Origin: Polaromonas sp. CG_9.7
GTDB lineage: Bacteria > Pseudomonadota > Gammaproteobacteria > Burkholderiales > Burkholderiaceae_C
Assembly: GCF_015752205.1 (NCBI RefSeq)
Contig: NZ_JADOVG010000008.1
Span: 62,001 to 126,000 of the forward strand
Length of the DNA: 64,000 bases
Direction of reading: 5' to 3'
In this document: positions 13,341 to 46,893 of the stretch, piece by piece
Numbering within the stretch: the first letter of the stretch is position 1
Layout: the number at the start of each line of letters is the position of its first letter
The notes under the pieces: model-generated
The model's input: the letters and a program-made list of their open reading frames with translations, nothing else
Told to the model about the DNA's origin: nothing
Databases searched by the model: none
Position numbers and translations under genes: made by a program

Positions 13341-14354
13341 TCATTGGCCCCAGTACGACAGCGCGATACCGGCAAACACGGTGAAACCCAACCAGTGGTT
13401 CAGGCGAAACGCCTTGAAACAGTCGTCGCGCTCACGCTTGCGGATCATCCAGCCGTGCCAAAGCGCTTGCAGCAACGCCAAGCCAATTGCTATGATAAAA
13501 ATAGCTGACTTTGCATACGCATAAAGCGCAAAAGCCCAAATCGATATAAAAATCAGGTAACTGAACATGACGCCAGCCACGTCAAAACGACCCAGCGTGA
13601 TCGCCGAGGTTTTCATGCCAATCAACAGGTCGTCGTCCCGGTCAACCATGGCGTATTCGGTGTCGTAGGCAATCACCCAGAACAGGTTGCCCAGCAGCAA
13701 GACCCAGGCCAAAGGCGGCACCTGCGACTGCACGGCGGCAAACGCCATCGGGATGCCGAAGCTGAACGCCACGCCCAGCACCGCCTGCGGCATGGCCACA
13801 TAGCGCTTGGCATACGGGTAGGCCAGCGTGACGGCCAGCGCAGCGAACGACCACGCAATCGCGGCGGCATTGGTGGTGAGCACCAGGCCAAACGCCAGCA
13901 GCGCCAACACGGCGCCCAGTGCCAGCGCCTGCTTGACCGACAGCGCGCCGGTGGTCACCGGCCGCTGCGCCGTGCGCTTGACATGCCGGTCAAACTCGCG
14001 GTCGGCCACGTCGTTGACACAGCAGCCTGCGCTGCGCATCAAAAACGTTCCCAGCGTGAACACGGTGATCAGGTGCCAGCCCGGAAAGCCCTGCGATGCC
14101 ACCCACAGCGCGGAAAGGGTCGGCCACAGCAGCAGCAGCCAGCCGGCCGGCCGGTTCCAGCGAATCAACTGCAAGTACAAGGCCCCCACGCTTTTCACTT
14201 CGTGTAAAGCGTGGCCCCCCGAGGGGGCTGCTGCGCCTGCAGCCCGGCCAAGCCGGTTGCGCGGCCCCTGCTGGCGTGGGGAGGGAGCCCTGGCACCCGC
14301 TGCGGGAGCTGTACTGGCTTGGGGCGGCGCGTCGGCGTGCCGATCAGCTCTCAT
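13341..14354 (-). CDS. ubiA: 4-hydroxybenzoate polyprenyltransferase with repeat-derived N-terminus
   Basis: UbiA attaches the polyprenyl tail to 4-hydroxybenzoate in ubiquinone synthesis and is an integral membrane enzyme. The catalytic part (about residues 58-337) has the Asp-rich motif [20 protein letters not shown] and the second motif [18 protein letters not shown], plus about eight hydrophobic helices. It is about 280 residues long, as in E. coli UbiA. The first roughly 57 residues are extra, and residues 26-57 are encoded by a 102-bp repeated palindromic element (14181-14282). Either the protein has gained a repeat-encoded N-terminus or translation starts at an undetected non-ATG codon near the end of the element. 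A 19-bp palindrome copy also lies inside the gene at 13488-13506. Confidence 0.93.
13488..13506. repeat. 19-bp dispersed palindrome, copy 3 (inside ubiA)
   Basis: On the minus strand it reads AGCTAT-TTTTATC-ATAGCA. It lies inside the ubiA coding region and encodes S-A-I-F-I-I-A in a hydrophobic helix. The same frame is used by the in-gene copy in the DUF3108 gene (S-A-I-D-S-I-A). Confidence 0.7.
14181..14282 (-). repeat. about 100-bp palindromic element, copy 1 (in the ubiA 5' end)
   Basis: This element shares long exact blocks with 22796-22898: GCCCCCTCGGGGGGC, TTACACGAAGTGAA, GGGCCGCG and CGTGGGGGC, in the same order and spacing except for one 1-nt indel. It contains several internal inverted repeats, including CACGCTTT/AAAGCGTG. 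It is translated within ubiA as a peptide containing QQGPR, AGA-x-APSGG and LHEV. Confidence 0.88.
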
Positions 14355-14362
14355 GTTTCGGG

Positions 14363-14887
14363 TTATTCCTCAAGCAGCGAACGCAGCATCCACGCGGTTT
14401 GCTCATGCACCGTCATGCGCTGGGTCAGCAGGTCGGCGGTTGGCTCGTCGCTGGCCTTGTCGGCCATGGGAAACAACTCGCGTGCCGTGCGGGCTACCGC
14501 TTCGTGGCCTTGCACCAGAATGCGCACCATTTCCAGCGCCTTGGGCGGCGTGACGGGCGCGTCGGGCACCGTGGCCAGCTTGCTGAACTGGGCGTACGAG
14601 CCCGGCGCCGGATGACCCAGCGAGCGGATGCGTTCTGCCACCGGGTCCACCGCGTTCCACAGCTCGGTGTACTGCGTCATGAACATGGTGTGCAGCGTGT
14701 TGAACATCGGCCCGGTCACGTTCCAGTGGAAATTGTGCGTCGTCAGGTACAGCGTGTAGGTGTCCGCCAGCAAGCGGCTCAGGCCCTGCGCAATCGCAGC
14801 GCGGTCCTTGTCGCTGATGCCGATACTGATGGCCGGCGCGCCTCGAACAGATGCACTGACAATGGTTTTTGCGGGAGATTTGGCCAT
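14363..14887 (-). CDS. dps: DNA starvation/stationary-phase protection protein Dps
   Basis: Dps is a ferritin-like dodecamer that oxidises and stores iron with peroxide and protects DNA. The 174-residue product carries the Dps ferroxidase signature [19 protein letters not shown] and downstream acidic residues ([17 protein letters not shown]). A basic, disordered N-terminal tail ([13 protein letters not shown]) could contact DNA. It lies directly downstream of oxyR on the same strand. The 111-bp gap contains an OxyR-like site and a matching promoter, so it is likely induced by peroxide through OxyR. Confidence 0.95.
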
Positions 14888-14923
14888 GATTTTTTTCCTT
14901 TAGAAGTCAACGGGAGATGGATA

Positions 14924-14977
14924 ACCATACGCAATCGACATTAACTTTGCAACAGTCAAGGTCTATGCGCGCAATAG
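14924..14977 (-). promoter_or_regulatory. dps promoter with upstream OxyR-like site
   Basis: On the minus strand, CTAT-N7-ATAG (14963-14977) is followed 10 bp later by -35 TTGCAA (14947-14952), a 17-bp spacer and -10 TATGGT (14924-14929). CTAT-N7-ATAG is the centre of the known OxyR consensus. The flank towards dps reads ATAGACCTTGACTGT, close to the ATAG-N7-CTAT half. Placement just upstream of -35 is typical for activation by a LysR-type regulator. Confidence 0.6.
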
Positions 14978-14998
14978 GTCGTGCGCATGCGCACCCTT

Positions 14999-15955
14999 TC
15001 AGGACAGGCGGATGACGCCCGGCAGTTCGCACGCATAAATTGCGTTGCGCAGCGCGGCAATGGCTTCGTAGCGGGTAAAACTGCGGCGCCAGGCGAGCAC
15101 CACGCGCCGCGTCGGCACATGGCCTTCGAACGGCAGGTAGCGAATGTACGAAGGCTGCTCAGCCGACGTGTCCTGCCCGCTGAGCGCCAGCGCCGCCTTG
15201 GGCACGCCCAGGCGCGGCACCAGCGTGATGCCCATACCGGCAGCCACCATGTGCTTGATGGTTTCCAGCGACGAGCCTTCAAAGCTCTTGCTGATGCCCT
15301 CGGCGCTGCTGGAAAAGCGCGCGAACTCGGGACACACCTCCAGCACATGGTCGCGAAAGCAGTGGCCGGTGCCCAGCAGCAGCAGGGTTTGCTTCTTCAG
15401 CTCCTCGGCGGTCACGCTGCTGCGCGCGGCCAGCGCGTGGCTGCTCGGCACGGCGGCCATGAACGGTTCGTCGTAGAGCGGCGCAATCGCCAGGTTGGTG
15501 TCGGGAAACGGCTCGGCCAATATGGCGCAGTCGATCTCGCCGGTGCGCAGTTCTTCCAGCAGCTTGACGGTGAAGTTTTCCTGCAGCATCAAAGGCATCT
15601 GGGGCGTTTTTTCGATGATCTGGCTCACCAGGTCGGGCAGCAGGTAGGGGCCGATGGTGTAGATAACGCCCAGGCGCAGGCTACCGGCCAGCGGGTCCTT
15701 GCCGCGCCGGGCGATCTCGCGGATGCTGTCGGCCTGCTCCAGCACGCTTTGCGCCTGGCGCACGATTTCCTCGCCCAGCGGCGTCACGGTGATCTCGTTG
15801 GCACTGCGCTCGAACAGCTTGACCTGGAGTTCTTCTTCCAGCTTCTTGATTGCCACGCTGAGCGTGGGCTGCGAGACATGGCAGGCCTCGGCGCCCCGGC
15901 CGAAATGCTTTTCACGGGCCACGGCCACGATGTATTTGAGTTCGGTCAGCGTCAT
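14999..15955 (-). CDS. oxyR: hydrogen-peroxide-sensing regulator OxyR
   Basis: This LysR-family activator (318 residues) has the N-terminal winged helix (residues 1-60, EACHVSQPTLSVAIKKLEEE) and the effector domain. The motif GHCFRDHVLEVC places cysteines at 199 and 208, the same numbering as the redox pair of E. coli OxyR, so it should sense peroxide by disulfide formation. It sits between dps and recG, and oxyR-recG linkage is common in Burkholderiales. The 230-bp upstream gap contains a copy of the 19-bp palindrome (16095-16113). Confidence 0.96.
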   Translation of the reverse strand: MTLTELKYIVAVAREKHFGRGAEACHVSQPTLSVAIKKLEEELQVKLFERSANEITVTPLGEEIVRQAQSVLEQADSIREIARRGKDPLAGSLRLGVIYTIGPYLLPDLVSQIIEKTPQMPLMLQENFTVKLLEELRTGEIDCAILAEPFPDTNLAIAPLYDEPFMAAVPSSHALAARSSVTAEELKKQTLLLLGTGHCFRDHVLEVCPEFARFSSSAEGISKSFEGSSLETIKHMVAAGMGITLVPRLGVPKAALALSGQDTSAEQPSYIRYLPFEGHVPTRRVVLAWRRSFTRYEAIAALRNAIYACELPGVIRLS

Positions 15956-16094
15956 GGGGCTATTGTGCTGCTTTCATCGTCGGGCCTGCGCAAAAAAAAA
16001 GCATCCGTGTGGCGCGACTCAAGCGCTGAAAAACATCGGACCCCCTGGTTTTCAAGCCAAATAACCGTCCACCGCACGTGCATCATGCGCTGGC

Positions 16095-16113
16095 AGCTAT
16101 CTAAAAAATAGCA
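16095..16113. repeat. 19-bp dispersed palindrome, copy 4
   Basis: AGCTAT-CTAAAAA-ATAGCA lies about 140 bp upstream of oxyR, in the gap between oxyR and the membrane protein gene. Arms and loop length are as in the other copies. Confidence 0.78.
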
Positions 16114-16185
16114 CTTGCCAGCCTGTTGACGGCCGGCCTCGGCGCCAGCAGCAAGACCTTCAGCCTTCTGCCCGGGCCGCAAGGA

Positions 16186-16689
16186 TTATTCGAGCTTTTT
16201 GTCCTCGCTTTTGGCTTCCTTCATCGCCTCCGGCTCCAGCTCCTCGGCGGAACGGTTGAACTGGATGAACACGCCCCAGCCGGCAAGCAATAACGCCACC
16301 GAGACCAGTATGCTTGCGGCATAGGGAAGTTGCGACAGGTCATCATGCAAGGCCTTGAAGGTTGCCACCAGCCCTTCGACCGCCATGGCCACCACGATGA
16401 CCACCAGAAACCGCGACAAATAGCGCCGCACCCGCGTCGGCGTGCTGACCTTGGTTTCTCGGATGACTTCTTCCTCGACGATGGTCTGGGCAATCTGCAG
16501 CGCCACCACAGCCACGGCAATCAGCCCGATTGACTCGATGATGCCCTGCGCCGCCGCAACGTCCAGGCCGCCGGCCAAGGCATGCCAGCCGGAATTTGCA
16601 GCAATGGCAATCAGCACCAGTGATGCGCCAATGAACAGCAAGGCCATCAGGGCGTGCAGCGAAGCGAACAGGCGCAAAAGGGTTTTCAT
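16186..16689 (-). CDS. predicted four-helix membrane protein
   Basis: This 167-residue protein of unknown function has four hydrophobic stretches (about residues 7-32, 48-72, 94-116 and 127-147). A charged cytoplasmic loop IVEEEVIRETKVSTPTRVRR separates helices 2 and 3, and the tail is strongly acidic/basic (EELEPEAMKEAKSEDKKLE). The ATG at 16689 (MKTLLRLFASLHALMALLF) was chosen over an upstream start at 16761 because it opens the first membrane helix. It lies between recG and oxyR on the same strand. I do not recognise a named family. Confidence 0.8.
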   Translation of the reverse strand: MKTLLRLFASLHALMALLFIGASLVLIAIAANSGWHALAGGLDVAAAQGIIESIGLIAVAVVALQIAQTIVEEEVIRETKVSTPTRVRRYLSRFLVVIVVAMAVEGLVATFKALHDDLSQLPYAASILVSVALLLAGWGVFIQFNRSAEELEPEAMKEAKSEDKKLE

Positions 16690-16801
16690 GCAGGCATGGT
16701 AGCGGCGGCTGAGCGCTTGTTCAATACCGGTCAATTGACACCCTTTTGCATGGGTTCTCAAGAATCGACACCCGTGCCGCTTGTCGCGCTGCGCCCAGTG
16801 C

Positions 16802-18949
16802 TCAAGCCTTCAAAAACTCAGCCTTCCCCCCCAGCCAGCGCAGCACATGCCGCTCGGCCAGATCTGGATGCTGGTTCAGCATCAGCGGCGCCACCTCCCG
16901 CGCCCAGGCCAGCAGCAGGGCATCGGTTTCCAGATCGGCAAACCGCAGCATCGCGGCCCCCGACTGGCGCGCCCCCAGGAACTCGCCCGGCCCGCGAATT
17001 TCCAGGTCGCGCCGGGCAATTTCAAAGCCGTCACCGGTTTCGACCATTGCCTTGAGCCGCGCCCGCGCCACCTCGCCCAGCCGCGGCGCGTCGCCGGTCG
17101 AATACAGCAGCACGCAGGCCGACGCGGCCGCGCCGCGCCCGACCCGGCCGCGCAACTGGTGCAATTGCGACAGGCCAAAACGCTCGGCATGCTCGATCAC
17201 CATCAGCGACGCATTCGGCACATCGACGCCGACCTCGATCACCGTGGTGCTGACCAGTACTGCCATCACGCCGTCGGTGAACAGGCTCATCACGGCCTTT
17301 TTTTCGGCCGGCGGCATGCGCGAATGCAGCAGCCCGACCAGCACATCGGGCAGCGCCTCGCTGAGCGCCGCATGCGTCTGCGTGGCGTTGACCAGGTCCA
17401 TCGACTCGCTTTCCTCGATCAGCGGACAGACCCAGTAGATTTGCCGGCCTTCGGCAATCTGCGCCTGGATGCGCGCCACGACCTCGTCACGCCGGGCCTC
17501 GTTGACCACCTTGGTGACGATGGGCGTGCGGCCGGGCGGCAGCTCGTCGAGCGTGGACACGTCGAGGTCGGCGTAGTAACTCATCGCCAGCGTGCGTGGA
17601 ATCGGCGTGGCGGTCATCATCAACAGGTGCGGCTCTTGCCCGCCGCCCGACATCTTGCTGCGCAGGGCGAGGCGCTGGGCCACACCAAAGCGGTGCTGCT
17701 CATCGATGATGGCCAGCGCCAGGTTCTTGAACACCACCTTGTCCTGAATCACCGCATGGGTGCCGACAACCAGCCCGGCCGCGCCGCTTTCAATCAGCGC
17801 CAGCATCTGCCGGCGCTCCTTGGGTTTTTGGCTGCCGCTGAGCCGGGCGATGGTGATGCCCAAGGGTTCGAGCCAGCTGATGAGCTTGCTGAAATGCTGC
17901 TCGGCCAGGATTTCGGTCGGCGCCATCAGCGCGCACTGCCAGCCGGCGTCGATGCAGCGGGCCGCCGCGAGCGCCGCCACCACGGTCTTGCCCGAACCCA
18001 CGTCGCCCTGCAGCAGGCGATGCATGGGAATGCGCTTTTTGAGGTCGGCCTCGATCTCCAGGCCGACCCGCTGCTGCGCGCCGGTCAGGCGAAACGGCAG
18101 GCGTTCCAGCAACTGCGCCTGCAGCGTGCAGTGGGTGCCGCGCATCGCCAAGCCATTCAGGGCTGGCGCGCGCATGGCAGCCCGCACGCGCCGGGCCTGC
18201 AACTGGGAGATTTGCTGCGCCAGCAGTTCCTCGGCCTTCAGCCGCTGCCAGGCCGGATGGCTGCGGTCTTCCAGCGTCTGCAGCGCCGCATCCGGCGTGG
18301 GATGATGCAAAAACTGTAGCGCCTCACGCAGGCTGGACAAGCGCAAAGGCATGTTTTTACTTAAAAACTCCGTGGGAATCGTTTCCTGCAGGTCGGCACG
18401 CGCCAGCCCGCCGAGCACCGCCTTGCGCAAATACACCTGCGGCAACCCGGCCGAGGTCGGGTACACGGGTGTCAGCGCACCCGGCAGTTCGCCACCGGCC
18501 AGCTTGAAGTGCGGATGCATCATCTCGCGGCCCAGAAAGCCGCCACGCAGCTCGCCCCGCACCCGCACCCGGGCGCCTACGCTGAGCGTTTTCTGGTGCG
18601 ATGGATAAAAATTGAGAAAGCGCAGCACGCAGGTGTCGCTGCCGTCATCGACCGTGACCAGCAACTGCCGACGCGAGCGGATCAATATTTCGCTGTGCAC
18701 GACCTCGCCTTCAAACTGCACCACTTCGCCGTCACGGGCATCCACAAGTCGCACGATGCGGGTTTCGTCCTCGTAGCGCAGCGGCAGGTGCAGGGCCAGG
18801 TCGATGTCGCGGCGCAGGCCGAGCTTGTCCAGGGCTTTTTGCGCTGGCGACTTGGCTTGCACTTTGGCGGCAGGCCGGCCCGCCGCAGCGGCCGCAAGCA
18901 CAGCGGTTTTCGGGGCCTTTTCAGGGGCGGGAGCAGCCGGTTGCGTCAT
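16802..18949 (-). CDS. recG: ATP-dependent DNA helicase RecG
   Basis: RecG remodels stalled replication forks and Holliday junctions. The 715-residue product has an N-terminal wedge/OB region (about residues 50-170), Walker A GDVGSGKT (315-322), the DEQH box (416-419), motif [14 protein letters not shown] and motif [11 protein letters not shown]. The N-terminus has an Ala/Lys-rich extension (first 35 residues) that looks disordered. It is divergent from queA with only 17 bp between the start codons, so the promoter for each must lie partly in the other gene. Confidence 0.96.
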
Positions 18950-18966
18950 GGGACAATTGTGCCTCC

Positions 18967-20052
18967 ATGAAGAAGAATTTCAGCCTCAGTGACTTTGATT
19001 TCACACTCCCCGACGAATTAATTGCCCAGCACCCGGCTGCCGAGCGCAGCGCGTCGCGCCTGCTCGACGGCCGGGGCGGCACTGTCGCCGACCGCCGCTT
19101 TGCCGACCTGCCCGGGTTGCTGCTGCCTGGCGACCTGCTGGTGTTCAACGACACCAAGGTGGTCAAGGCGCGGCTGTTCGGACAAAAGGCCAGTGGCGGC
19201 AAGCTGGAACTGCTGATCGAGCGGGTGCTCTCGCCCCATTCTGACGCCGGCCATGAGGTGGCGGCGCACATGAAGGTCAGCAAAAAGCCCCTGCCCGGCG
19301 CGGTGCTGCAGATGGATGGCGGCTTCACCGCGACGCTGCTGGGCCGCTGGCCCGAGGCGCACGGGCCGCTGTACCGTTTGCGGTTCAGCAGCGACCCGTA
19401 TGCGCTGATGGCGCAATTCGGTCATGTGCCGCTGCCGCCCTACATCACCCACACCGATTCGGCGGATGACGAGCAGCGTTACCAGACCGTCTTTGCCAAA
19501 AACCCTGGCGCCGTGGCCGCGCCGACCGCTGCGCTGCATTTCGATGAGGCCATGCTGGAAAAGCTGGAGGCGCGCGGCATTGCCCGCGCCAGCGTCACGC
19601 TGCATGTCGGTGCGGGTACCTTCCAGCCGGTCAAGGCCGAGCAGATCGCGGACCACGTCATGCACTTCGAACGCTTCGAGGTGCCGCAGGCTACGCACGA
19701 GGCGATTGCCGCCTGCAAGGCGCGTGGCGGACGCGTGGTGGCGGTGGGCACGACGACGGTGCGGGCGCTCGAATCCGCCGCCAGGTTCGGCCCGGATTGC
19801 GACGACACCAATATCTTCATCACGCCGGGTTTCGAGTTCCAGGTCGTCGATGTGCTGCTGACCAACTTCCACCTGCCCAAAAGCACCTTGATGATGCTGG
19901 TCAGCGCGTTTTCGGGTTATGAACACATCATGGGGCTGTACCGGCATGCAATCGAACAGCGCTACCGCTTCTTCAGCTATGGCGACGCCATGCTGCTGGA
20001 GCGTACTCCCTGCAACACCTACGATATCGACTCCTTGTCCGTTGTACGATAA
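18967..20052 (+). CDS. queA: S-adenosylmethionine:tRNA ribosyltransferase-isomerase
   Basis: QueA transfers the ribosyl moiety of SAM to 7-aminomethyl-7-deazaguanine in tRNA, making epoxyqueuosine. The 361-residue protein starts [20 protein letters not shown] and has family motifs [31 protein letters not shown] and [11 protein letters not shown]. The length is close to E. coli QueA (356). It normally neighbours tgt, which acts earlier in the same pathway. Here a toxin-antitoxin pair sits between the two. Confidence 0.96.
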
Positions 20053-20062
20053 AATCATCGAT

Positions 20063-20278
20063 ATGCAAAACCAGACCGTCATTGTCTCGCCCAAGTACCA
20101 AGTTGTCATTCCGCGTGAAATCCGTGAAGCCGGCGGCATCAAGCCCGGCACCCGCATGAGCGTGTTCGAGGTTAATGGTGTGATCCAACTGGTGCCGGTC
20201 AAGTCGGCCTCGGACTGCCGGGGCCTGCTGTCTGGCCTGTCCAGCACCGACGTGCCCACCGAACCCGAGCGGTTCTGA
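20063..20278 (+). CDS. AbrB/MazE-type antitoxin of a VapBC module
   Basis: This 71-residue protein has a SpoVT-AbrB swapped-hairpin DNA-binding fold: TVIVSPKYQVVIPREIREAG then IKPGTRMSVFEVNGVIQLVP. The C-terminal tail (GLLSGLSSTDVPTEPERF) is the likely toxin-binding part. The ATG at 20063 was chosen because upstream codons are the queA overlap in another frame. It ends 5 bp before the toxin gene, the usual antitoxin-first order. VapB antitoxins neutralise the toxin and autorepress the operon. Confidence 0.88.
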   Translation: MQNQTVIVSPKYQVVIPREIREAGGIKPGTRMSVFEVNGVIQLVPVKSASDCRGLLSGLSSTDVPTEPERF

Positions 20279-20283
20279 GCCGC

Positions 20284-21877
<1,594 letters not shown>

Positions 21878-21880
21878 ATC

Positions 21881-23233
21881 GTGAACATCGACCTGCAGCG
21901 ATTCATTGACCGCTGGGCCGGCATTCCGCTGTGCGCGGCAGTGTCTGGCGTGGATGCGCTGAAGCGCCGCTTCATGCCGGCACCGGCCACAGACCAGCCG
22001 CCGCGCGCCATCGTGGTGATTTTGCTGTCGGAAATGGGCAGTCTGGTGCTGGCCAACGACATGTTTGCGCGGCTGAAGGCGCGCTACCCTGACGCGCCGC
22101 TGCATGCGCTGCTGTTCGCCAAGAACCGCGAGATTCTCGACCTGATGCAGGTGATGGACCCGGCGAACGTGCACACGGTCGATGACCGTTCATTGACGTC
22201 ATTGCTGTCCAGCCTGTGGCAAGCCATCAAGGCATTGCGCCGCGCCAATGTCGATGTGGCGATTGACTGCGAACTGTTTTCGCGCATCAGCAGCCTGCTG
22301 TCGTATGCCAGCGGCGCGGCCGTGCGGGTGGGGTTTCACCGCCATACGCAAGAAGGTCTGTACCGGGGTTCGCACATCAACCGGCCGGTGCCCTACAACC
22401 CGTATCACCACATCAGCGCGCAGTTCCTGACGCTGGCACGGGCGGTTGACTCAACCGCCGTGCCCAAGTCCAAACTGGCCGTCGTGGCCAGCCCCAGGCC
22501 GCCGCCCCATGTGCAGCTCGATGGCGCGCTGGTCCAGGGCATTCAAACCCGGCTGGCGCAGGATTTCCCGGCGATTGCCGGCAAGCCGCTGGTGCTGGTC
22601 TATCCGGGCGGCGGCATCTTGCCGATTCGCGCCTGGCCGCTGGCGTCGTACACCGCACTGTGCGAAGGCCTGGTGGCCGACGGCTGCGCCGTGGCAGTGA
22701 TTGGCCTGAAAGACGACCAGGAACTTGCCCGGCAGCTGGTGGCCCAAGTTCGAGCCACAGCCGATATGGGTGGCGAAGGGAATGATCTAGCGCACTCCCC
22801 ATTCCAGCAAGGGCCGCGGGACTGGCTTCGCCAGACCGCAGGCGCAACGGCCCCCTCGGGGGGCAGAGAGTTACACGAAGTGAACGAACGTGGGGGCGCC
22901 ATCATCGACCTGACCGGCTACACGCGCTCAATTTCCGAATTGCTGGCGCTGTTCCATGTGGCGCGGCTGCTGGTCACCAACGACGGCGGCCCGGGCCAGT
23001 TCACCGCGCTGACGCCGATCTGGACGCTGATGCTGTTTGGCCCCGAAACGCCAGGCCTTTACGCCCCGCTCACGCCTCGCTGTTACTCCTTTTACAGCCA
23101 GTGGCCATGCTCGCCCTGCCTGACCGCTTATAACCACCGCACGTCCTACTGCGATGGCGACAACCAGTGCCTGAAGGTGATAGCACCCGCCGCCGTGCTG
23201 GCCAAGGCACGCGAATGCCTGGCGGCCCCTTGA
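21881..23233 (+). CDS. family 9 (heptosyltransferase-like) glycosyltransferase with in-frame repeat insertion
   Basis: This 450-residue protein is related to LPS heptosyltransferases. The N-terminal half has ILLSEMGSLVLANDMFARLK and the C-terminal half has the nucleotide-sugar region LVTNDGGPGQFTALTPIWTL. A GTG start lies 3 bp after the tgt stop, so it is probably co-transcribed. Residues about 305-340 (HSPFQQGPRDWLRQTAG, ATAPSGGRELHEV) are encoded by a repeated palindromic element. They interrupt the fold between a helix (LVAQVRA) and the strand IIDLTGYT. The frame stays open, so a full-length protein with a surface loop is expected. Donor and acceptor sugars are unknown. Confidence 0.85.
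   Translation: MNIDLQRFIDRWAGIPLCAAVSGVDALKRRFMPAPATDQPPRAIVVILLSEMGSLVLANDMFARLKARYPDAPLHALLFAKNREILDLMQVMDPANVHTVDDRSLTSLLSSLWQAIKALRRANVDVAIDCELFSRISSLLSYASGAAVRVGFHRHTQEGLYRGSHINRPVPYNPYHHISAQFLTLARAVDSTAVPKSKLAVVASPRPPPHVQLDGALVQGIQTRLAQDFPAIAGKPLVLVYPGGGILPIRAWPLASYTALCEGLVADGCAVAVIGLKDDQELARQLVAQVRATADMGGEGNDLAHSPFQQGPRDWLRQTAGATAPSGGRELHEVNERGGAIIDLTGYTRSISELLALFHVARLLVTNDGGPGQFTALTPIWTLMLFGPETPGLYAPLTPRCYSFYSQWPCSPCLTAYNHRTSYCDGDNQCLKVIAPAAVLAKARECLAAP
22796..22898 (+). repeat. about 100-bp palindromic element, copy 2 (inside the GT9 gene)
   Basis: This is the second copy of the element found in ubiA. It begins TCCCCATTCCAGCAAGGGCC and ends CGTGGGGGCG, with the central GCCCCCTCGGGGGGC hairpin. 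It is inserted within the GT9 coding sequence without breaking the frame. The two copies give the same reading frame and a recognisably similar peptide. Confidence 0.88.
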
Positions 23234-29970: not shown

Positions 29971-31953
29971 TCAAGCCTTCATCAGCGCCGCCACCCGCAC
30001 ACGCAACACGTCAGGCTGGACCTCGGCGCTCGCCAAGGCTGGCGCCACGTTCAGCCCGACGCGGCTGAACAGGCCGCGCCGAAAAGGCCGCGCCACCGCC
30101 ACCTGCTGGCCGTTAACCCGCTCGGCCCGACTGAAAAAGGAACCCCACAGGTTTGTCAAGGCCATCGGGACCACGGGCACCCGCAGGCCGTCGCGCCCGG
30201 CGTTTTCCAGGATCTTCATGATGCCACCCTTGAACGGCTGGAGTTCGCCATCCGGTGTCAGACCGCCTTCGGGGAAAATCGCCAGCAAATCGCCATTGCG
30301 CAGCACCTGCGCTGCCGCTTCAAACGCGGCCTCGTAAGCGTCGGGGTCTTGGGCATGCGGCGCCACCGGAATGGCCTTGGCCAGCCGGAACAGCCAGCCT
30401 AGCAAGCGCAGCCGGAAAATCTGGTGATCCATCAGAAAGTAAACCGGCCGCGAACTGGCGGCCATCAGCAGCACCGGGTCAATGAAACTGACATGGTTGC
30501 AGACCAGCACAGCCGCGCCGCGCGCCGGCAGGTTCTCGTCGCCGCTGATCTTGAAGCGGTAAATGCAGCGCGACACCATGAACGCTAAAAAACGCAGCAA
30601 ATACTCGGGCACCAGCATGAAGATGTAGAACGCCACCAGCGCATTGGCCAGACCGGTGAACAGGAAAATCTGCGGAATGCTGAAATTTGCATTGAGCAGC
30701 GCGCCGGCCAGCACGGCGCTCACGATCATGAACAGCGCATTCAAGATATTGTTGGCGGCAATGATGCGCGCGCGGTGCGTCGGCTGGCTGCGCAGTTGGA
30801 TCAGCGCATACATCGGCACGCTGTACAGGCCGGCAAACAGGCTGAGCAGTGCCAGGTCGGCCATCACGCGCCAGTGCGCCGGCTGGGTGATGAACGCGCC
30901 CAAGCCCATGAGGCTTGATGGCGGCAAGCCGCGCGTGGCAAAGTAAAAGTCCACCGCGAACACGCTCATGCCGATGGCCCCGAGCGGCACCAGGCCGATT
31001 TCGACATGGCGGCGGCTCAGCACCTCGCACAGCAGCGAACCGGTGGCGATGCCGATGGAAAACACCACCAGCAGGAGCGACGCCACATGCTCGTCGCCAT
31101 GCAGCACTTCCTTGGCCAGGCTCGGGAACTGGCTCAAAAACACCGCGCCGAAAAACCACATCCAGCTGATGCCCAGCATGGAGCGAAAGACCACGATGTT
31201 GCCGTGTGCCAGCGTGAGGTTGCGCCAGGTTTCCGTCACCGGGTTCCAGTTGATTCTCAAGCCCGGATCGGTCGCCGGCGCCTTCGGGATGAACTGCGCC
31301 ACCGCCCGGCCCGCCAGCGCCAGCACCACGCACGACACAGCGACATAGTGAGGCCCGACACCCGGCAGCGCCACCAGCAGCCCGCCGGCGAGGTTGCCGA
31401 GCAGGATGGCGACAAATGTTCCCATCTCGACCATGCCGTTGCCGCCAGTCAGTTCGCGCTCGGCTAACACTTGCGGCAAATAGGCGAACTTGACCGGGCC
31501 GAACAGCGTCGAATGCAGCCCCATCAGAAACGTACAGCCCAGCAGCAACGGCACCTGAACACGCATGTTGTCGCTCATGAAGCCTGCGGCGGCAATGGCC
31601 ATGATCACCACTTCGAGATTTTTGACGAAGCGCATGATGCGGGTTTTTTCAAACTTGTCGGTCAGCTGGCCGCTGGTCGCCGAGAACAGCAAAAAAGGCA
31701 GGATGAAGAGCGCACCAATCACCAGCCCGGCCAGCGAAGGCGGCAGCCAGCCGACGCTCAACTGGTAGGTGACCATCACGGTGAAGGCGAACTTGAACAA
31801 GTTGTCGTTTGCCGCGCCCGAGAACTGGGTCCAGAAAAACGGCGCAAAGCGGCGCTGGCGTAACAGGGCGAACTGGTTCGGGCGCGCTTCGCGGGCGCAG
31901 ACCGGCACCGCCGGTGCGGCCGGCATCGCCGTGAGGGCGGGGTCAACGCGCAT
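29971..31953 (-). CDS. MFS transporter-acyltransferase (PlsC) fusion, LplT/Aas-like
   Basis: This 660-residue fusion has an N-terminal major facilitator domain (about residues 25-420, twelve helices, start FALLRQRRFAPFFWTQFSGA) and a C-terminal 1-acylglycerol-3-phosphate acyltransferase domain. The latter has the HX4D motif CNHVSFIDPVLL and FPEGGLTPDGELQPFKGG. In E. coli, LplT flips lysophospholipid and Aas reacylates it. Here both activities appear in one chain, although the acyl-ACP synthetase part of Aas is absent. Such fusions occur in other Burkholderiales. The 218 bp upstream of the start hold no gene. Confidence 0.9.
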   Translation of the reverse strand: MRVDPALTAMPAAPAVPVCAREARPNQFALLRQRRFAPFFWTQFSGAANDNLFKFAFTVMVTYQLSVGWLPPSLAGLVIGALFILPFLLFSATSGQLTDKFEKTRIMRFVKNLEVVIMAIAAAGFMSDNMRVQVPLLLGCTFLMGLHSTLFGPVKFAYLPQVLAERELTGGNGMVEMGTFVAILLGNLAGGLLVALPGVGPHYVAVSCVVLALAGRAVAQFIPKAPATDPGLRINWNPVTETWRNLTLAHGNIVVFRSMLGISWMWFFGAVFLSQFPSLAKEVLHGDEHVASLLLVVFSIGIATGSLLCEVLSRRHVEIGLVPLGAIGMSVFAVDFYFATRGLPPSSLMGLGAFITQPAHWRVMADLALLSLFAGLYSVPMYALIQLRSQPTHRARIIAANNILNALFMIVSAVLAGALLNANFSIPQIFLFTGLANALVAFYIFMLVPEYLLRFLAFMVSRCIYRFKISGDENLPARGAAVLVCNHVSFIDPVLLMAASSRPVYFLMDHQIFRLRLLGWLFRLAKAIPVAPHAQDPDAYEAAFEAAAQVLRNGDLLAIFPEGGLTPDGELQPFKGGIMKILENAGRDGLRVPVVPMALTNLWGSFFSRAERVNGQQVAVARPFRRGLFSRVGLNVAPALASAEVQPDVLRVRVAALMKA

Positions 31954-45855: not shown

Positions 45856-46893
45856 ATGACTACGCCTGAAAATAGCCACCCCACCATTGACGATGTCGCC
45901 CGCCTGGCAAGCGTATCGACCGCGACGGTGTCACGCGTCCTGAACCGGCCCGAGTCGGTTAGCGAATCCTTGCGAAAGAAAGTCACTGCAGCTGTGGCAC
46001 AGCTGGGCTATGTGCCACATGCCGGTGCGCGTGCGCTGATGCTGCGGCGTTCCGGCACGGTCGGCGCCGTGTTTCCGACCGTGGACAATGCCATCTTTGC
46101 CACTGCGATTGATTCGCTCCAGCGCCGCCTGGCGCAGTCGGACATCCAGTTATTGATTGCCACCAGCGGTTATGACAAAACCAGTGAAATGCGCCAGGCC
46201 ATCAACCTGGTTACCCGGGGGGCTGATGCGCTGGTGCTGTGCGGATTCAGCCAGCATCCCGACCTGCTGCGCTTCATGGATCAACGCAGCCTGCCCTGTG
46301 TCCATGTGATGGTCCATGCACCGGACAACCAACATATCAGTGTCGGCTTTGACAATGTTGCCGCCATGGCCCAGGCAACGCAATACCTGATCGATCTGGG
46401 TCATCGCCACATCGCCATGCTGGCCGGCGTGACGCTCGACAATGACCGTGCATTGCAGCGGGTCGAAGGCGTGCGTCGGTCATTGCAGGCGGCCGGGCTG
46501 GATTTGCCAGCCGGGCGCCTGGTGGAACGAGCCTACGCGCTGGCCGATGCACGAGACGGGCTGCGCCAGCTGATGGCGCACCAGCCAGCACCCACGGCGG
46601 TGATCTGCGGCAACGACGTGCTGGCCTTTGGCGCCATGCTGGAAGCGGCCAGCCTGGGCTTGCAGGTGCCGCACGACCTGTCCATCGTGGGTTTTGATGA
46701 CCTGGAGATGGCGCGGCACCTGCAGCCCGCACTGACCACCGTGCGGGTTCCCACGCAAGCCATGTGGAGCACAGCGGCCGACCGTCTGGTGGCCGCAATA
46801 CGCGGAGAGTCGGTCCAGCGCAGTACCAAAATCGACGTGGCGCTGGTGGTGCGCCAGTCCACCGGGCCGGCGACATCAGGCAAACAGGGTTGA
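45856..46893 (+). CDS. LacI-family transcriptional regulator of the sulfonate cluster
   Basis: This 345-residue repressor has an N-terminal helix-turn-helix and hinge (residues about 10-65: TIDDVARLASVSTATVSRVL, then YVPHAGARALMLRRSG) and a periplasmic-binding-protein-like effector domain ending LVVRQSTGPATSG. It lies divergently from the transport operon. Three operator-like palindromes, at its own start, at the transport promoter and upstream of hpsN, define its probable regulon. The inducer is likely the transported sulfonate or an early product. Confidence 0.93.
   Translation: MTTPENSHPTIDDVARLASVSTATVSRVLNRPESVSESLRKKVTAAVAQLGYVPHAGARALMLRRSGTVGAVFPTVDNAIFATAIDSLQRRLAQSDIQLLIATSGYDKTSEMRQAINLVTRGADALVLCGFSQHPDLLRFMDQRSLPCVHVMVHAPDNQHISVGFDNVAAMAQATQYLIDLGHRHIAMLAGVTLDNDRALQRVEGVRRSLQAAGLDLPAGRLVERAYALADARDGLRQLMAHQPAPTAVICGNDVLAFGAMLEAASLGLQVPHDLSIVGFDDLEMARHLQPALTTVRVPTQAMWSTAADRLVAAIRGESVQRSTKIDVALVVRQSTGPATSGKQG

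Follow-up and report, generated by a model that had tools for sequence, protein, structure and literature searches.

A hairpin repeat, most likely of the BRE family, lies in frame in conserved enzyme genes of Polaromonas sp. CG_9.7

Palindromic repeats that lie in frame within conserved proteins are known chiefly from Rickettsia, a genus of obligate intracellular bacteria. Here we describe a comparable case in Polaromonas sp. CG_9.7 (assembly GCF_015752205.1), starting from a stretch of 64,000 nucleotides of contig NZ_JADOVG010000008.1 (positions 62,001 to 126,000, forward strand), which is referred to as the window. Two copies of a repeat of about 100 bp are present in the window, one in ubiA and the other in a glycosyltransferase gene of the GT9 family. 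The repeat most likely belongs to the beta-proteobacterial repeat elements (BRE), and our analysis indicates that it is very probably a non-autonomous mobile repeat whose insertions in genes give rise to translated spacer peptides that are tolerated.

The BRE section of Hot et al. 2011 (PMC3110155) describes a repeat of about 90 bp, with copies of 75-91 bp in Bordetella (for example at 3605317-3605401 in Bordetella pertussis). It names Bordetella, Azoarcus, Polaromonas, Rhodoferax, Acidovorax, Delftia and Verminephrobacter as hosts, gives 29 copies for Polaromonas sp. JS666 and mentions that some copies lie entirely inside coding sequences. The initial annotation of this DNA knew of no described counterpart in Comamonadaceae; that there is none is not supported in view of this earlier report. 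Our repeat resembles the BRE of that section in its size (about 90 bp with partial copies, the element here being somewhat longer than the Bordetella copies), in a GC content above the genome average, in tandem arrays whose units follow each other directly or after a few bases, in its Comamonadaceae hosts, Polaromonas being the richest host listed, and in its apparently mostly intergenic location with some copies wholly intragenic (here 15 sites in 14 genes). The assignment to BRE is based on these features and sets the element beside BRE by description only. The BRE section names no host proteins for its intragenic copies and contains no analysis of reading frames or comparison of orthologues.

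The Rickettsia palindromic element (RPE) of Ogata et al., as summarized in a review (PMC2229807), is a palindromic repeat of 105-146 bp with a 12-bp terminal inverted repeat, which occurs between genes and in frame in conserved proteins (19 Rickettsia reading frames). According to the same review, Rickettsia Gmk with an RPE insert is translated and active with altered substrate affinity. The parallel with Rickettsia drawn in the initial annotation is apt, as the element described here also lies in frame in conserved protein genes. However, it differs from the RPE in its Polaromonas-type host, its length of mostly 98-100 bp, its three internal hairpins and the lack of a clean terminal inverted repeat in its consensus. 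ERIC, YPAL and Correia-type miniature inverted-repeat transposable elements are likewise small non-autonomous hairpin repeats with open frames and some in-frame gene fusions, but target-site duplications are reported for Correia, ERIC, RUP and YPAL in the review (PMC2229807) whereas none is seen here. PARCEL (Roske et al. 2010, PMC2996958) is described as a palindromic coding repeat with tandem arrays and inferred mobility, and differs from our case in that the inserts here lie in conserved enzymes. REP elements are similar in being dispersed palindromes, and no target duplication is seen here; in contrast, REPs are 20-40 bp long (PMC3733652) and none of 30 Y1 loci examined has a copy of our element. 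The phenomenon of in-frame insertion is already known, as is the family if the element is a BRE. What the present analysis adds is the list of Polaromonas host genes, the re-used loops and the bias towards two frames, none of which appeared among the titles listed by searches of an open-licence library, a search by which absence from print is not shown.

The repeat family and its two window copies

The two copies, their hairpins and their host genes are located in the window as follows.

13341..14354, minus strand: host gene ubiA, 4-hydroxybenzoate octaprenyltransferase (TIGR01474, 291.9 bits, cut-off 275.45, residues 59-335)
14182..14280, minus strand: BRE-type element, full length, at the 5' end of ubiA, APSGG frame (covariance model R2, 99.1 bits, E 1.2e-16)
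14230..14271, minus strand: hairpin 1, ubiA copy (window position from manual conversion)
14214..14228, minus strand: hairpin 2, ubiA copy (window position from manual conversion)
14190..14212, minus strand: hairpin 3, ubiA copy (window position from manual conversion)
14283..14330, minus strand: probable decayed remnant of a shorter element variant, upstream of the full ubiA copy and in the same frame (boundaries approximate, by eye)
21881..23233, plus strand: host gene GT9 glycosyltransferase (heptosyltransferase-like), 450 aa including the insert (PF01075, E 2.2e-14)
22798..22897, plus strand: BRE-type element, full length, in the GT9 gene, APSGG frame (covariance model R2, 99.3 bits, E 1.1e-16)
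22807..22848, plus strand: hairpin 1, GT9 copy (consensus columns 10-51, changes on both sides in four pairs; window position from manual conversion)
22850..22864, plus strand: hairpin 2 of the GT9 copy, a C-run / G-run palindrome coding APSGG, nearly invariant
22866..22889, plus strand: hairpin 3 of the GT9 copy (columns 70-93, helices 3 and 4, four pairs changed on both sides), followed by a sharp 3' terminus

Covariance model R2 was built from copies that include both window copies. The initial annotation had recognized two related stretches of about 100 bp with one indel, and its coordinates agree with ours to within two bases. Global alignment of the GT9 and ubiA stretches gives 82 identities, 20 mismatches and one gap of 1 nt, and a blastn search of the window with the ubiA copy recovers the GT9 copy at E 1.6e-21 and the next match at E 0.005. 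As proposed earlier, the same APSGG..LHEV frame is read in both copies and is open throughout each of them. This shared frame was dropped as an argument on its own, because all six frames of the element are mostly open. The peptide PPQASTAP, encoded by the probable remnant upstream of the ubiA copy, is also found in the short variant of two other genomes (G014 and G024).

The whole-genome search recommended with the initial annotation shows that the similarity is not a chance resemblance of a single pair. In this genome of 4.15 Mb and 55 contigs, the covariance model finds at least 107 matches (E<=1e-3), with 150 of 6034 candidates scored, and BLAST finds at least 58 (E<=0.01), with 40 of 134 scored. 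Joining of neighbouring copies at gaps of up to 60 bp reduces the 107 model matches to 78 loci, 20 of which are multi-copy, i.e. tandem. The model has a length of 99, about 92 of which form a conserved core, and its matches span 61-114 bp, mostly 98-100 bp. Mean GC content is 74.4% for 86 full copies as against 61.1% for the window. The 3' end of the element is sharp, the 5' end is degenerate and the consensus has no clean terminal inverted repeat.

The element had been described as a palindromic repeat. Our alignment of 31 copies (30 BLAST loci and the GT9 copy, 101 columns) agrees that it is hairpin-forming, but reveals three adjacent hairpins instead of one palindrome, comprising 28 pairs with 97.6% of the cells paired. 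Changes on both sides are seen in eight pairs, four each in hairpins 1 and 3 and none in hairpin 2. The number of cells changed on both sides is 51, compared with a mean of 15.8 in shuffled alignments, and none of the 500 shuffles reaches this value. Hairpins 1 and 3 are thus supported by covariation.

Host genes and reading frames

In-frame elements are present at 15 sites in 14 genes of the genome, and family scans assign all 14. A codon-usage filter applied to the 107 copies, in which an open frame through the element was required, retains 13 copies in nine genes, namely GT9, PurL, MetX, PriA, FdhD, CydA, a ligase-associated DEXH helicase (two sites), an RND adaptor and a fatty-acid hydroxylase. 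Five further genes (UbiA, an FAD/FMN oxidoreductase fusion, a histidine kinase, a sulfate permease and GlnE) were chosen from lists of open reading frames. In a second screen without any frame requirement, strong coding open over 150 bp on the same strand was sought on both flanks of the 78 loci. Some pairing is seen at 17 of these loci; the best frame is involved on both sides in 12, and 10 of the 12 are in frame.

At hairpin 2 the APSGG frame is used at 8 of the 15 sites and the LPPEGA frame at 6. All six frames are mostly open in copies outside the host list (32 to 47 of 49 full anchor-bearing copies, and 66-90% of 71 full copies), and the expected share of the two favoured frames is 0.362. 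The observed shares are 9/10 in the set of the second screen (tail 7e-4) and 14/15 over all sites (tail 7e-6); after correction for picking two of six frames (15 pairs) the tails become about 0.01 and 1e-4. Mean net charge of the encoded peptides is +2.0 and +2.45 in the favoured frames and +3.7 to +5.3 in the others. As the favoured frames are the two least basic ones, the bias is suggestive of a translated peptide, basic versions of which are purged. Inside some copies a one-base deletion shifts the frame, for example in the copy of the RND adaptor.

Frame retention is also evident in orthologous loops. Loop alleles were read, in any frame, between two required anchors in 30 MetX loci of the genus, 80 MetX loci of named genomes, 30 PurL loci and 12 GT9 loci, which yielded 19, 79, 22 and 11 distinct readable alleles, respectively; loci with a failed anchor pattern, including MetX of the genome itself, were dropped from this count. 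All 131 alleles have a length divisible by three and contain no stop, 22 of them carrying the element motif and the others being mostly insert-free. A DNA search of 58 chosen loci, a non-random set into which only the eight insert-bearing loci entered from the 80 named MetX loci, gives 34 element matches, and 30 of these lie wholly within the open host frame. Among these 30 elements, 18 are read in sense orientation (APSGG frame) and 12 in antisense (LPPEGA frame), the frame being set by the motif in 23 and by eye in 7, several of which are decayed. Of the remaining four matches, two lie in another part of the locus, and two (L042 and L214) were missed by the host patterns and are in frame by reading.

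Alignments of the host proteins to solved structures break at the insert in MetX (241/247 of 2pl5), PurL (598/605 of 1t3t), PriA (369/370 of 6dgd) and FdhD (between 190 and 194 of 2pw9), and weakly in CydA (segments of 21 and 34 bits). For GT9, the segment past the insert is not significant in the comparison with a solved structure. In an AlphaFold2 model of MetX from a named genome (L254, with two copies; alignment of 23), the insert is coil with block means of about 27-38 in the predicted local distance difference test (pLDDT), in a model which is modest overall (mean pLDDT 64.8). The model is thus only consistent with a disordered loop.

The FdhD gene (L163:691-2088, plus strand) contains four tandem copies in frame, which add about 130 residues. 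The sulfate permease gene (L177:1972-4257, minus strand) contains at least four tandem 84-bp units of the short variant, all in frame. The helicase gene (L173:920-3898, minus strand; TIGR04121, 1048 bits) contains two separate elements in two different frames.

Distribution across genomes

Matches to the element are present in 24 of the 26 genomes of the genus, with counts of up to at least 150 copies, and are absent from G003 and G021. In the family, where 27 candidates were scored per genome, matches occur in at least 101 of 150 genomes, most of the listed matches outside the genus being weaker (50-65 bits). In the order at least 20 of 399 genomes match at E<=0.01 (10 candidates each), 11 of them in the family. 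Copies are found in 14 of 18 named genomes chosen from 80, including 80 copies in Variovorax sp. CF313 and 46 in Acidovorax sp. sic0104; the other four show none at E<=1e-4. The element is present in genomes named Polaromonas, Variovorax, Acidovorax and Rhodoferax, and no genome was recognized as Bordetella. Two of the named Polaromonas genomes (L241 and L243) agree with G011 and G006 in the number and location of their matches, so genomes labelled Polaromonas belong to the genus of the window. In G122, a genome of another Burkholderiales family (L411 is among its loci), nine relatives of 79-84 bp show, by eye, what looks like the three-hairpin layout, and to equate this repeat of about 82 bp with the Bordetella-type BRE would be a guess. 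Two plasmid records (Diaphorobacter and Variovorax) match the repeat of our genome and five (Variovorax 3, Diaphorobacter 1, Methylibium 1) match that of G122. Carriage by phages was considered and rejected, as no phage record matches a copy of either genome.

REP elements are linked with RAYT/Y1 transposases. Y1_Tnp matches occur in 25 of the 26 genomes of the genus, including the two without the element (G003 and G021). The exception is G011, a genome that is 79% complete, in which the element is present and no Y1 match is found. A RAYT/Y1 transposase is not supported as the mobilizer, since not a single copy (E<=0.01) lies within about 1.5 kb at 30 Y1 loci (of 33 matches).

Insertion sites in orthologues and competing explanations

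The initial annotation had proposed an insert in two proteins, and comparison of orthologues places the two cases at different levels of certainty. The GT9 gene is found in 12 of 41 genomes; the insert is present in four of them (G000, G001, G020 and, in a shorter form, G014) and absent in eight. The PF01075 match in the GT9 protein stops at residue 291, ahead of the insert. Insertion within the protein is well supported for GT9. For UbiA it is probable, the sequence of the element being present at the N-terminus in only 4 of 30 aligned loci (G000, G014, G016 and G024), one of the 30 being without its N-terminus; a split match in G001 (query 22-141) suggests that the element is present there too. 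The peptide is therefore not conserved in all orthologues of either gene, and neither conservation throughout nor a lack of further genomic copies, both named earlier as refuting the proposal, has occurred.

In UbiA the element forms an N-terminal extension. As it spans the region of the start codon, translation might be initiated within it, and the copy may instead supply the start of the gene. In this alternative, it would be an ordinary intergenic element which has replaced the start region, with translation starting at a GTG in its 3' end and the upstream frame being open by chance. We take this as a serious possibility, if one that is somewhat less likely than not. In-frame GTG codons are indeed present in the 3' end of the element, the TIGR01474 match begins only downstream of the element at residue 59, and element-free orthologues appear, by eye, to start a few codons ahead of LYLQL. 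However, in G000 the stop codon of the upstream gene is shortly followed by an ATG whose frame continues through the element, G016 also has an upstream in-frame ATG, and the element-bearing relatives that were read keep the same frame.

MetX is found in 25 of the 26 genomes of the genus; by eye, 12 have the element peptide, 11 do not and two (G009 and G010) are unclear. The DNA model finds the element in 10 of the 12 and misses it in G005 and G002. PurL is found in 23 genomes of the genus with a readable loop in 21, of which eight have the element (all eight found by the DNA model) and 11 do not. In the remaining two, G004 (L217) and G002 (L230), the PurL loop is filled by repeat-like peptides (PLPRGEGWGEG; FDKAQDRQAQDR), which we take to be other repeats, so this loop seems open to repeats of several families. 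The two inserts do not always occur together, G019 having the MetX insert only and G011 the PurL insert only. Among the best 80 of at least 594 MetX loci of named genomes, three of which are unreadable, an element-like peptide is present in eight (L242, L247, L248, L249, L254, L257, L259 and L264), some of them decayed. These are labelled as Burkholderiaceae, uncultured beta proteobacterium (two), Burkholderiales, Comamonadaceae, Rhodoferax (two) and Comamonas.

Different copies are found at one and the same site. A possible explanation is a single ancient insertion in each host gene, followed by gene conversion by other copies, which would make orthologous inserts look unrelated. Several species share the same PurL loop with a nearly identical 3' junction, the low synonymous divergence within the inserts would fit homogenization, and the GT9 copies of G000 and G001 are closest to each other (95.7% identity, above the match of either to any other G000 copy). 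However, the element lies in opposite orientations in the MetX loop among genomes, and short and full variants are found in one loop. Moreover, when 15 orthologous-site copies were compared with the copies of G000 only, four of them (L212, L216, L183 and L188) were 97-98% identical to an unrelated G000 copy and 86-92% to the orthologous one; others lean towards unrelated copies less clearly, and L213 is a tie. Because of these unrelated matches and the opposite orientations in MetX, repeated insertion is favoured, and we infer that it is the main cause of the differing copies; a single ancient insertion with later gene conversion appears less likely, though plausible. A bolder proposal is that the BRE-type repeats act as an active loop generator which re-invades the same MetX, PurL, GT9 and UbiA loops across species, nearly only two of six frames passing, and so gives rise to two low-charge spacer peptides according to orientation. 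We put this forward tentatively, leaning slightly against it.

Substitution rates were estimated in eight comparisons across GT9, PurL and MetX. Outside the insert the nonsynonymous rate (dN) is 0.07-0.12 and the synonymous rate (dS) 0.34-0.99, which gives a dN/dS of about 0.12-0.24 (for GT9 against G001, dN is 0.067 and dS 0.549), and the host enzymes are under purifying selection. The insert looks younger or more homogeneous than its host. It might be argued that the peptide or the hairpin is of use to the host, for instance in the tuning of translation or of enzyme assembly, and that the inserts persist for this reason; the same loops recur across genera, and insert DNA varies less between species than host synonymous sites. 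The occurrence is patchy, however, as 11 of 25 MetX and 11 of 21 readable PurL loci are insert-free, decayed remnants occur, dN is about equal to dS within the insert, and other repeat peptides occupy the same PurL loop in G004 and G002. Such a benefit is improbable, and the inserts are more probably tolerated.

It is still less probable, to the point of being hard to credit, that the element is missing from the mature protein because it is cut from the mRNA or skipped by the ribosome, so that the host frame would be irrelevant. The hairpins are predicted to be stable (minimum free energies of -45 to -56 kcal/mol) and the insert is conserved as DNA, not as codons, both of which would fit removal, but stop-free lengths divisible by three in every loop allele read, including the 22 with the element motif, and the dominance of two of six frames are unexpected if the element is removed. 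An assembly or binning artefact, or chance GC-rich similarity, can practically be dismissed: many genomes of the genus are fragmented drafts, but the genome itself is listed as 100% complete with 0.04% contamination, the single-contig G418 and the 9-contig G023 carry copies, and covariation and BLAST E-values oppose chance.

The reading which we prefer is that of a translated and tolerated mobile repeat. A three-hairpin DNA repeat of about 92-100 bp, dispersed and non-autonomous, would spread through Comamonadaceae genomes and settle mostly between genes, singly or in tandem, with a minority of copies in coding sequence. The coding copies that survive would be those between conserved blocks which keep the frame, contain no stop and encode nearly always one of the two least basic peptides. 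The insert would then be translated as a spacer peptide while the host enzyme stays under purifying selection.

Several observations weigh against this reading. Translation of the insert is itself predicted from sequence. Inside the insert (28 to 34 codons) dN is 0.04-0.22 and dS 0.04-0.27, roughly equal, so the insert is not constrained as codons, and apart from its frame and composition the peptide shows no sign of selection at the codon level. Five of the 14 host genes were hand-chosen, which makes the frame count of 14/15 a biased sample, and the second helicase site is the one that uses another frame. In the second screen, two of the 12 best-frame loci are out of frame, as are all five weaker pairings; the two loci were rejected as gene disruptions, since by eye they appear to be shadow frames of opposite-strand genes, perhaps hisA and pyrB, ending at the element. 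Hairpin 2 has no covariation support in the 31-copy alignment. One of five covariation measures, the number of further pair types, is not above shuffles (330 of 500 reach it), and predicted folding of the window copies is only mildly better than that of shuffled sequences (z -0.8 to -1.8). Comamonas RQ_Bin_4 has a decayed MetX insert, yet its genome shows no match at E<=1e-4. No target-site duplication is seen over 53 single copies; the best flank agreement is a 2-mer in 7 of 53, with 2.6 expected, and is the top of many offsets tried. In the 30 loci examined there is no link to a Y1 transposase either. Because both of these are lacking, the case for mobility rests on dispersal and polymorphism.

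The same outcome as in Rickettsia, in Comamonadaceae genomes of 2-5 Mb and in enzymes like PurL, MetX and PriA, suggests that it depends on element abundance and loop tolerance and not on intracellular life. With full, decayed, empty and, in MetX, opposite-strand alleles among related genomes, the MetX and PurL loops offer a natural experiment in the conversion of DNA repeats into protein sequence.

Elsewhere in the window, a weak model match at 46531-46606 (minus strand; 17.8 bits, E 0.11) is either chance or a decayed copy. An Rfam scan of the window and three loci gives no match over the element at the gathering threshold. The scan identifies a match to Bcj11, a Burkholderia small RNA, at 31102-31223 on the minus strand of the window (68.7 bits, against a gathering score of 49).

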